IMG/VR virus record: IMGVR_UViG_3300047554_000428
Span: 1 to 34,475 of that record
DNA length: 34,475 nucleotides
Source of the DNA: a virus
Strand: one strand, 5' to 3'
Shown here: one piece after another, positions 12,102 through 28,511 of the stretch
Numbering within the stretch: the first letter of the stretch is position 1
Layout: each line of letters opens with the position of its first letter
The notes under the pieces: model-generated
What the model was told of the DNA's origin: nothing
The model's database searches: none
The model's input: only the letters and a program-made list of their open reading frames with translations
Made by a program: the position numbers and the translations under genes

Positions 12102-12725
12102 CTATTTGGTAAGTCCAAGAATGTCGCGTACACCCAACATTTCTAAAGCCAAAGCAGCCTGTTGAGGCACAACACCATTACCCGCTGCCTTCAACTCTTC
12201 AATACGACTCAAACCACAATCTATAATCCAACCAGGCTCTAAACCCATCATCCACTCGGTAAACTCTGAGCTAAGTCGCTCATTTCCGTCTTTTCCATCT
12301 GGTTTGGTTGGAGCAGGTACAGATCTTCCTACAGTTGCTTCCCAACGGCGTATAGCAGGTTCAAATTTACCCCATTCGGTTTCAGTAACCTCACCACTAT
12401 TGAAAATGGCTCTGGCAACAGTATCAGTCTGTACTACACCGTCTCGTTGGTGCTCTGCTTGGCTGTCTTTGTAATCCCTACTCATAGGAGTTGGCAGATT
12501 ACTGATCTCTTCTGATTCCGAGGATGAAGATTCTAAACCTACTGTGAGGTGCTCCTGCATCGGCAGCTCGTAAACCAACCCATCGCGCATCATACCCGAG
12601 GTCGGCCAAACTTCCGAGAACAGCTCCCAATGCTCGCAAAGAAGGCTCGCCATTGGCTTCTCCCATACACCACGCACAGTATTCCAAATCAGAATGGGCT
12701 GTTGCGCTGAGGATTCCTCTAACAT
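12102..12725 (-). CDS. Cytosine-5 DNA methyltransferase, C-terminal part (target recognition, motifs IX-X)
   Basis: A separate frame, +1 relative to the N-terminal part. ATG 12725 gives 207 aa. It carries LFSEVWPTSGMMRDGLVYEL and SNLPTPMSRDYKD, the segment typical of phage C5-methyltransferases after motif VIII. These are followed by FEPAIRRWE, RLSSEFTEWMMGLEPGW and AAGNGVVPQQA (motif X). The first 227 bases overlap the N-terminal part out of frame. The two chains would have to associate, as in M.AquI and M.EcoHK31I, or be joined by a frameshift. A sequencing indel is the simpler alternative but does not explain the family-like sequence upstream in this frame. Confidence 0.8.
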   Translation of the reverse strand: MLEESSAQQPILIWNTVRGVWEKPMASLLCEHWELFSEVWPTSGMMRDGLVYELPMQEHLTVGLESSSSESEEISNLPTPMSRDYKDSQAEHQRDGVVQTDTVARAIFNSGEVTETEWGKFEPAIRRWEATVGRSVPAPTKPDGKDGNERLSSEFTEWMMGLEPGWIIDCGLSRIEELKAAGNGVVPQQAALALEMLGVRDILGLTK

Positions 12726-13059
12726 TCTCAATAACCACCAATCTAGGCTTCAACTCATCAATCGCTCTAGCAAACTCCGACCACAAACCAGAGCGAGTTC
12801 CGTCTTTCAAACCAGCACGTTTACCAGCCAAAGACAAATCCTGACACGGAAAACCACCAGTCAAAATATCTACAGGCTCAACCTGAGTAAAGTCAACCTG
12901 AGAAACATCCTTATAGTTAGGCACACCAGGAAAATGCTTCTCCAAAATCTTGCTAGGAGCATCATCCCACTCACAATGCCAAACAACCTCAGCACCAGTA
13001 ACCTCAGTTACCGCAAGATCTAAACCACCATAGCCACTAAAAAGGCTACCTATCTTCAT
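12499..13059 (-). CDS. Cytosine-5 DNA methyltransferase, catalytic N-terminal part (motifs I-VIII)
   Basis: Transfers methyl from S-adenosylmethionine to C5 of cytosine. Motif I FSGYGGLDLA (residues 7-16), motif IV GGFPCQDLS with the catalytic Cys (about residue 71), motif VI ENVRG (about 111-115) and motif VIII AGAPHSRFRIFILG near the end. The frame stops seven codons later (IRRDQ, TAA at 12499), so motifs IX and X are absent from this chain and are in the overlapping frame. At 186 aa it is about half the usual length. Likely role: protect phage DNA from host restriction. Overlaps the upstream gene by 14 bases. Confidence 0.88.
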   Translation of the reverse strand: MKIGSLFSGYGGLDLAVTEVTGAEVVWHCEWDDAPSKILEKHFPGVPNYKDVSQVDFTQVEPVDILTGGFPCQDLSLAGKRAGLKDGTRSGLWSEFARAIDELKPRLVVIENVRGILSATAHSDLEYCAWCMGEANGEPSLRALGAVLGSLADLGYDARWVGLRAADAGAPHSRFRIFILGIRRDQ

Positions 13060-15925: not shown

Positions 15926-16225
15926 ATGACAGTACACAAGATAGAACGCGCCTACAAAAAGCTACAATTTGCAATCCTTGAAGAAGGCGCACCAGAATGT
16001 ACTCAATACCCAGAAATATTCTTCCCAGAAGACAATGCCAACTATTACAGTCGCACAATCACATGGGAAACAGCATTTGCAAGAAAAATCTGCCAACAAT
16101 GCCCAGTTCTACAACTATGTGCAGAATACGCGCTCTTAGCGCACGAACCATACGGGGTATGGGGAGGAATGACCGCTGCAGAACGCAACGAACTACTAAA
16201 GAAAAGAAAACCTACTGTTTCTTAG
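15926..16225 (+). CDS. whiB: WhiB-family iron-sulfur transcriptional regulator
   Basis: 99 residues with the four cluster cysteines C25, C56, C59, C65 (CTQYPEIFFPED, then ICQQCPVLQLC), the GVWGG turn (77-81) and a basic end (AAERNELLKKRK). WhiB proteins carry a 4Fe-4S cluster, bind the principal sigma factor and occur only in Actinobacteria and their phages. It is the only gene on the plus strand, divergent from the early operon and convergent (14-base overlap) with the lysis genes. It could redirect host transcription or block superinfection, as the mycobacteriophage TM4 WhiB does. Confidence 0.95.
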   Translation: MTVHKIERAYKKLQFAILEEGAPECTQYPEIFFPEDNANYYSRTITWETAFARKICQQCPVLQLCAEYALLAHEPYGVWGGMTAAERNELLKKRKPTVS

Positions 16226-26689: not shown

Positions 26690-27327
26690 CGGTTCTCTCT
26701 TCTAACTCGCAAAGACCATTCGCCCTGTGTGTAATCCTGCTCTGCAGCTTTTCTTTCAAATAACAGTTGATTAGCATTGAAAGATCGCGCATTTGCGTTG
26801 ATATAGCCTGACTTGAGTGTCGAACTGTTCTCATGGTGCACAGTAGCAGGAATGTGGTTAATCGGTACTTCCTTTTGACGAACTCTACGCTCCAAGTCAT
26901 TGTCATCAAAGTAAAGCGGATAAAAGCGTTCATCATACAAGCCAACCTTTTCGACCATGCCTTCACCAAATACTACAGCCGACCACGGTGGTGTGATGTC
27001 TAAGAAGTTCAACGCTTGAGTATCAACGTTCTCAGCAATCTTCTGCAACGAACCAGGTTCAAACCAAGCATCATCATTAATCAACACCCAATACGGTGCA
27101 TACGGTGTCGATTTGACAATCAGATTCCAAGCCCCAACAAGCCCCAAGCCGTAAGGCACTTGAATATGCCACATACGTTGCACAGAAGCAGGTTTACGAG
27201 GCTTCCACACCTGTTTACCAGAATTATCAATAATGACCAGATGCTCTACCGGATAGTCGATAGAGCGCAACATACGCTCCGCTAAATCAAACCTGCTAAG
27301 GGTGGCGAACCCGAGTACAGGAATCAC
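26680..27327 (-). CDS. Glycosyltransferase family 2-like (GT-A fold, 215 aa)
   Basis: FATLSRFDLAERMLRSID (7-24), HLVIIDNSG (29-37), GLVGAWNLIVK (62-72) and the metal-binding INDDAWF (83-89, DxD-like) define the GT-A nucleotide-sugar site. A later FYPLYFDDNDLERRVRQK carries the catalytic acidic patch. It transfers a sugar from a nucleotide donor; the acceptor is unknown. Start overlaps the GT-B gene by four bases. Confidence 0.85.
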   Translation of the reverse strand: MIPVLGFATLSRFDLAERMLRSIDYPVEHLVIIDNSGKQVWKPRKPASVQRMWHIQVPYGLGLVGAWNLIVKSTPYAPYWVLINDDAWFEPGSLQKIAENVDTQALNFLDITPPWSAVVFGEGMVEKVGLYDERFYPLYFDDNDLERRVRQKEVPINHIPATVHHENSSTLKSGYINANARSFNANQLLFERKAAEQDYTQGEWSLRVRRENRWD

Positions 27328-28511
27328 TTGTCTTTAGCCAACAGACGGTCAATGACGGGACTCCAATACTTCGCCCACACATTTTCCACATCGAACTCTT
27401 TAGCGAACTCTACAGCCTTCACAGAGCGTTCACGAGGCGCATTGTAAGCCTGTTCCAAAGCCTCAACAATAGAAGGCACAAGCGGAATCTGCCAAACACT
27501 ATCCTGCCCTGAATCAAACATAGGCTGACCATCAACCAACCACGAATCCTCAGCAACAAGATCAGGAGTAGCCGCCCAATTCGACCCAATCACACGAGTA
27601 CCACACGCCTGAGCCTCAATCGTAGGAATACCAAAACCCTCACCATACGAAGTAGCCAACAACACATCCATACCCGTATACAAAGCAGCCAAATCCTGCT
27701 TCTCCATACCAAACTTGTAATCAACAAACGGCGGGAATAAAACAGCATCCTTTGGAATACCAAACGCTTGCAGAACCTTAATCAGATTCCAACCAACACC
27801 CGAACCAGTCGCATCCGTGTGCAAATACAAAACCGAATCAGGGTGACGTTGATGAAAAATACTAAACGCCAACAAGTTCTCACTAAACGCTTTACGGTGA
27901 ATCAACCCAGAAGATTTATTAGCAGCGTTCATACCCACAACAAACTTGTCACGAGTACCCATATAGTCACGAACATTCTGCCCCTGAATCATCTCAGACG
28001 GTTTAAAAATATTCGTATCAATAGCATGAGGTACATACTCACACTCAATGCCCTTCTTCTCCATCATACGAACACCATTCGGAGCCATAGCAATCGGAGT
28101 GACATTATCTTTACGCAACCAAGCCTCAACCTTCGGAGGCATCGTAATGTGATCAAGCGGAACCCAAGAACCAACATTAATGTTGTCCCAAGCCTTACCC
28201 TGCAAAACCCACACATCATACAAAGTGATCATTGCACTCGGCTTGCCCTTATGCTGACCCTTCCAATGAGCGTGACTCAACGGAGCAACATCATTCGAAT
28301 AAACATCTAAACCACGCGGATAATGAGGCACATCACCATACGGAGACTTATACACATCAATAGCCCCATCCAACCCATAGTTAGACAAAGCAGCAACATT
28401 AGCGCCTTCACGCTTCAACAAGTCAACAAGGTATCCAGCCTGTTGCCCGTAACCAGTAGCCCGACCAGGTGAGTTCGACCAAACCGACACGACACCATTA
28501 ATTTTTTTCAA
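27324..28511 (-). CDS. Glycosyltransferase family 4-like (GT-B fold, 395 aa)
   Basis: An N-terminal Rossmann domain with SPGRATGYGQQAGYLVDLLK (14-33), then a C-terminal domain with YGEGFGIPTIEAQACGTRVIGS (around 290-312), the GT4 donor-binding motif. YVPHAIDTNIFKP is also typical. It is read from a TTG (28511), with AAAGG 11 bases before it. First gene of the cassette, with a terminator upstream and a TTGACA box at 28560-28555, so it may have its own promoter. Product and acceptor unknown. Confidence 0.87.
   Translation of the reverse strand: MKKINGVVSVWSNSPGRATGYGQQAGYLVDLLKREGANVAALSNYGLDGAIDVYKSPYGDVPHYPRGLDVYSNDVAPLSHAHWKGQHKGKPSAMITLYDVWVLQGKAWDNINVGSWVPLDHITMPPKVEAWLRKDNVTPIAMAPNGVRMMEKKGIECEYVPHAIDTNIFKPSEMIQGQNVRDYMGTRDKFVVGMNAANKSSGLIHRKAFSENLLAFSIFHQRHPDSVLYLHTDATGSGVGWNLIKVLQAFGIPKDAVLFPPFVDYKFGMEKQDLAALYTGMDVLLATSYGEGFGIPTIEAQACGTRVIGSNWAATPDLVAEDSWLVDGQPMFDSGQDSVWQIPLVPSIVEALEQAYNAPRERSVKAVEFAKEFDVENVWAKYWSPVIDRLLAKDK

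Follow-up and report, generated by a model that had tools for sequence, protein, structure and literature searches.

Overlapping phage genes likely encode the catalytic and recognition chains of one cytosine-5 DNA methyltransferase

We identified two overlapping genes, A and B, on the minus strand of a viral stretch of 34,475 nucleotides (IMG/VR virus record IMGVR_UViG_3300047554_000428, positions 1 to 34,475; hereafter the window). Comparison with relatives shows that this overlapping two-gene design is real and widespread and is not a sequencing error. A and B are likely two separately translated genes that jointly form one cytosine-5 DNA methyltransferase, although their expression, association and methylation activity are inferred. 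The features of both genes are collected in Table 1. Inspection of the open reading frames of the window showed that gene A starts with ATG and ends in ...AADAGAPHSRFRIFILGIRRDQ before its stop codon; in relatives, A ends shortly past GAPHxRFRVFIVAYP. The motifs expected of a C5-cytosine methyltransferase are all present, with motifs I, IV (PCQ), VI (ENV) and VIII every one on A, and with motifs IX and X and the recognition region located on B by alignment with a natural A-B fusion, L017. When the two frames were searched separately against profiles, A matched PF00145 in Pfam (E = 5e-40) over profile positions 1-165 of 324, its first half only, as well as TIGR00675 and the PHROGs family phrog_363. 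Gene B was assigned to phrog_1008 (E = 3e-48), a 'DNA methyltransferase' family separate from that of A, and alone had no Pfam match; a PDB sequence search with B as query likewise returned no match. Searches by tblastn found matches to A in 1556 phage records and to B in 572. The gene A match falls into two pieces in the Gordonia phages Sitar, Lennon, Sedona and Bibwit, where an HNH or a LAGLIDADG endonuclease is annotated at the break; this may be a homing insertion.

Table 1. Positions of genes A and B and of their features in the window
Feature	Position	Strand	Remarks
Gene A, catalytic chain	12499..13059	minus	186 aa; C5-cytosine methyltransferase motifs I-VIII
A motif I, FSGYGG	13024..13041	minus	AdoMet binding; from sequence and alignment A2
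A motif IV, GGFPCQ	12841..12858	minus	catalytic cysteine; P71 and C72 invariant in alignment A2
GGTGG, Shine-Dalgarno-like	12735..12739	minus	9 nt before ATG 12725, in the LVV codons of A
A motif VI, ENV	12721..12729	minus	invariant in alignment A2; its AAT-G is the ATG of B in frame +1
Dual-coding overlap	12499..12725	minus	227 nt (75.7 codons); frame 0 is the end of A, frame +1 the N-terminus of B
A motif VIII, GAPHSRFR	12532..12555	minus	within the overlap; alignment A2
Gene B, recognition chain	12102..12725	minus	207 aa from ATG 12725, stop 12102
B overlap segment, WPTSGMMRDGLVYELP	12561..12608	minus	+1 reading over the LADLGYDARWVGLRAAD region of A
B recognition module, LPTPMSRDYKDSQAEHQRDGVVQTDTVARAIFNSGEVTET	12375..12497	minus	putative; specificity inferred
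B motif IX-like segment, RLSSEFTEWMMGLEPGW	12228..12278	minus	conserved in alignment A6
B motif X, GNGVVPQQA	12156..12182	minus	nearly invariant in alignment A6

Gene B lies in frame +1 of A, in a reading frame that is already open upstream of 12731 and stays open down to the stop of B. We found the identical +1 layout in 96 non-redundant relatives, and in a locus set drawn mostly from IMG/VR the C-terminus was in frame +1 of A at 107 of the 124 loci where it could be identified. The relatives are not mutually independent, so these counts should not be read as probabilities. Three isolates, Leona (251 nt), Firecracker (209 nt) and Phanphagia (251 nt), are already annotated with two overlapping 'DNA methylase' genes. 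The annotated B start lies downstream in Abidatro gp41 (L001), PainterBoy gp86 (L166) and Kyee gp78 (L162), and most of the conserved N-terminus is thereby lost. Alternatively, a single-chain gene could have been broken by a recent indel or by an assembly error of one base, and single-frame relatives are indeed known, among them L017, which is closest to the window's A. However, the same split occurs in the 96 relatives and also in Arthrobacter and Mycobacterium phage isolates, selection acts on both frames, and the L017 fusion is derived since it sits in a clade of 31 rows that is otherwise all two-chain. These data leave almost no room for the indel explanation, and an error of sequencing or assembly is ruled out because independently assembled relatives share the layout.

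Both frames of the overlap are under selection, as shown by comparison. The window alone is only a weak single-sequence test, with a probability of about 0.08 that the overlap would contain no +1 stop, so the case for the overlap rests on the relatives. Across the 96 non-redundant loci, synonymous recoding of A predicted 251 stops in frame +1 of the overlap and we observed 0; frame +2 contained 324. The expectation is calibrated, as codons 1-120 held 666 stops in frame +1 against about 599 expected; codons 121-186 held 0 against 194. Synonymous differences in A amount to 0.611 upstream and 0.433 in the overlap, a ratio of 0.708 (bootstrap 95% CI 0.683-0.733), and four-fold columns fall from 0.661 to 0.440 (p about 1e-7). 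The synonymous profile of A is flat to about codon 105 and drops at codons 111-121, where B starts. The distribution of substitutions over the three codon positions of A is 21/14/65% in the A-only region, 33/18/49% in the overlap and 65/22/13% in the B-only region.

A further alternative is that the N-terminal similarity of B is merely a shadow of the conserved frame of A, with the true B start downstream and little overlap. Alternate-frame similarity is indeed partly automatic (GYDAxW read in frame +1 gives GMxRxG), and several annotators prefer a downstream start (Abidatro, PainterBoy, Kyee). However, a shadow cannot cut the synonymous rate of A, clear the +1 stops or raise substitution at the first codon position of A, which goes from 0.177 to 0.263 in the overlap. 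Nor would it account for W14 and W21 of B, which are nearly fixed at columns where A varies (A columns 125 and 132), or for the start and Shine-Dalgarno sequence of B conserved at A nt 334/352. We therefore consider the shadow explanation very improbable.

As controls for these comparisons we used frame +2 and the upstream codons, both taken from the genes under study. Streptococcal and marine phage C5-methyltransferases had been tried as non-overlapping controls for stop depletion and were dropped, both sets being depleted in +1 stops themselves; the streptococcal set also shows uneven divergence, probably due to recombination, which skews synonymous rates. The streptococcal phage enzymes (L163, L168-L247) are single-chain C5-methyltransferases with 0 stops in frame +1 of codons 61-180 against about 200 expected and normal counts outside these codons. 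Their +1 product turned up in 110 phage records, annotated there as the methyltransferase itself or without anything specific; it could be either another overlapping gene or a frame shadow.

The start of B appears to be written into A. In the window, ATG 12725 is the best start, and a TTG at 12731 is a second possibility; the choice remains unresolved. The relatives split into two start groups of 49 and 47, with the window in the latter. In the group of 49, a stop immediately ahead of A nt 352 closes the frame of B, and the start found at nt 352 is GTG (44) or ATG (5). Arg114 of ENVRG is AGG in 44/49 of this group (background 0.14), Ser118 is AGT in 44/49 (background 0.18), and together the two codons typically spell AGGGG-spacer-GTG. 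In the group of 47, the frame is open further upstream, AAT-G in ENV yields an ATG in 44/47, and Arg114 is mostly AGA. Val108 is GTG in 32/47 of this group versus 9/49 of the other, a synonymous choice favouring GGTGG. This comparative evidence suggests that the start codon and Shine-Dalgarno sequence of B are built into the VVIENVRG codons of A via synonymous choice, and since codon choice shifts along with the start position, it is strong evidence for internal initiation of B.

Programmed +1 frameshifting at the end of A would instead produce a single A-B polypeptide and leave the overlap segment of B untranslated. In its favour, the frame of B is always +1 relative to A and viable fusions exist, such as L017. 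However, the end of A is variable, with TAG (46), TGA (36) and TAA (14) as stop codons and varied codons preceding them, and the conserved slippery site that marks programmed +1 frameshifting was not found at the stop and preceding codons of A in the 96 loci. A conserved start, a Shine-Dalgarno sequence and constraint on the frame of B over the whole overlap are also not needed by a frameshift, which we regard as a very remote possibility. Rather, B is separately initiated, because its start and Shine-Dalgarno sequence are embedded in A and no conserved slippery site exists. Separate translation of both chains is supported by comparison only, with no experimental data.

The earlier note, made from the sequence alone, had placed motifs I-VIII in one frame with a stop at 12499 and the recognition domain and motif X in a second frame open upstream to ATG 12725. 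Both claims held on the minus strand, as did its claims that 76 codons are used twice and that both frames of the overlap look family-like, the N-terminus of B being conserved in relatives. Its statement that EVWPTSGMMRDGLVYELP normally follows motif VIII in single-chain phage enzymes failed, since in the single-frame relatives DillTech15, Derg, PFR1 and MidnightRain this segment likewise falls outside the frame of motif VIII, which it overlaps in frame +1, and it is absent from the L017 protein. The one-base indel which it had named as the simple alternative is excluded by the independently assembled relatives. Of the heterodimer it proposed, the two-chain dual-coding is supported by layout, stops, synonymous constraint, substitution phase and start with ribosome-binding site, while the physical heterodimer and its activity are inferred.

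Gene B of the window contains one putative target-recognition module followed by motifs IX-X. Across the family, B consists of an overlap segment (~70 aa), 1-6 modules and a C-terminal part reading WGKFEPAIRRWE...EWMMG...GNGVVPQQA. The B chains of relatives begin [M/V]..PIAxWNxxRGVWE...ELFSETWPTSGMMRNGxVYELP...ESSS and continue into LLPTP-type modules that start about at the stop of A; W40, G44 and G49 of the overlap segment are invariant in 40 aligned B chains. The modules, with a median of 41 aa, form recurring families whose combinations vary and which are reused across loci. We infer that each LLPTP unit recognises a target site, although there are no target-recognition data. At four loci (L056, L064, L071, L098), the recognition ORF stops and motifs IX-X go on in a third frame, giving three ORFs.

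The L017 protein is a natural one-frame fusion with the order A, LMPTP modules, IX/X, in which the N-terminal segment of B is left out of frame. Because this segment is omitted when A and B are fused, the N-terminus of B probably docks onto A, and we infer that the overlap segment serves for docking and becomes dispensable once the two chains are joined. The structural model of the L017 fusion matches M.HhaI and M.HaeIII, consistent with the C5-methyltransferase fold; the part homologous to the motif IX-like segment of B has a pLDDT of about 90 and the module region falls below 50. An AlphaFold model of B alone, from an alignment that left out four rows from isolate records, was moderate (mean pLDDT 68.7), with much of the C-terminal part good (blocks of ~86-92) and the rest weak. 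Its PDB matches were mostly C5-methyltransferases, none of them significant.

In the mechanism we propose, ribosomes would initiate B inside A, so that the opening 76 codons of B share their DNA with the final 76 of A, and the two chains would then associate, with the N-terminal segment of B probably docking onto A; this is inferred, without binding data. A would provide AdoMet binding and catalysis through motifs I-VIII, and B would provide the target-recognition module and motifs IX-X. A by itself should neither fold completely nor select a site, as the recognition module and motifs IX-X are on B. From the shuffling of modules we infer that swapping units of ~41 aa in B would alter specificity and leave the catalytic chain untouched. 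The neighbouring genes that we examined included no restriction enzyme, from which we infer that the methyltransferase most likely protects the phage genome from host restriction by marking it. The most likely reading is an orphan two-chain methyltransferase that guards phage DNA, its activity and assembly being inferred. The window also carries a WhiB-like regulator on the strand opposite to A/B (15926-16225, plus), which points to an actinobacterial host, and a glycosyltransferase-like gene (27324-28511, minus) adjoining the capsid gene.

We also examined 80 loci in actinobacterial genomes, most of which carry the TWPxSGMTRxG signature and LLPTP modules in frame +1, even where frame 0 has no stop before motif X. 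Substitutions in the module regions of such loci show the pattern of frame +1, whose third codon position receives 56% of them (56/23/21 over all such loci; 65/21/13 in Pseudonocardiaceae), whereas A and the C-terminus of the same single-ORF loci evolve in frame 0. Examples of a single long ORF with a module region evolving in frame +1 are L252, L254, L257, L277, L283 and similar loci. A bolder reading is that the family is fundamentally dual-frame and that actinobacterial and phage loci annotated as 'single-ORF' nest a +1 recognition protein inside the methylase gene, with frame 0 crossing the modules as a linker to motifs IX-X. We find this reading as hard to dismiss as to accept because module exchange with two-chain loci could contribute. 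The absence of frame-0 stops from these module regions is no proof, being partly circular, as the loci were classed by openness. If the nested reading is true, what databases annotate as the recognition region of these proteins would be a frame shadow.

Only a handful of natural C5-methyltransferases with two chains are known. The earlier note had named M.AquI and M.EcoHK31I as precedents. In M.AquI from Agmenellum quadruplicatum, the larger of two polypeptides carries motifs I-VIII and the smaller IX-X (PMC3404938), the same division that A and B show. However, the variable region of M.AquI is divided between its subunits whereas the phage modules lie wholly on B, and the phage family adds a 227-nt dually selected out-of-frame overlap and module arrays (the overlap of M.AquI was not compared). 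By analogy, A/B may work like M.AquI, as a known type in a new variant form. M.EcoHK31I also requires two polypeptides, but it divides the motifs differently, with only motif IX on the small subunit and the recognition domain, like motifs I-VIII and X, on the large one (PMC3404938). The second chain of M.EcoHK31I is encoded in an overlapping alternate frame. Artificially split M.SssI works best when its C-terminal fragment begins after motif VIII and before the recognition domain (PMC3404938), where the natural cut between A and B also falls. Multispecific phage C5-methyltransferases of the SPR, phi3T and SPbeta type hold arrays of recognition modules between motifs VIII and IX, comparable with the putative modules on the B chains of relatives, but these enzymes are single-chain while the array of B is on its own polypeptide. 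The modules of the multispecific Bacillus phage enzymes are roughly 40 aa.

Papers on the actinophage methylase family report inteins and an out-of-frame HNH insertion (PMC9957025, PMC11855218), and the A/B split is absent from both. The ShiLan domain (PMC11855218) resembles A/B in that an actinophage methylase gene holds a second protein in another frame, but there it is a mobile HNH endonuclease insertion whereas B is part of the methyltransferase itself. We found no description of the overlapping A/B pair in the literature searched, although coverage was incomplete.

The present family is large, occurs in phages, has both chains encoded in partly shared DNA, and conceals the translation start of one chain within a catalytic motif of the other. 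It also shows that where annotation rules disfavour overlaps, the recognition chain of phage genomes ends up truncated or misnamed. Because a constant catalytic chain is kept apart from a swappable recognition chain, direct tests become possible for the docking segment, for the module code and for what long overlaps cost.
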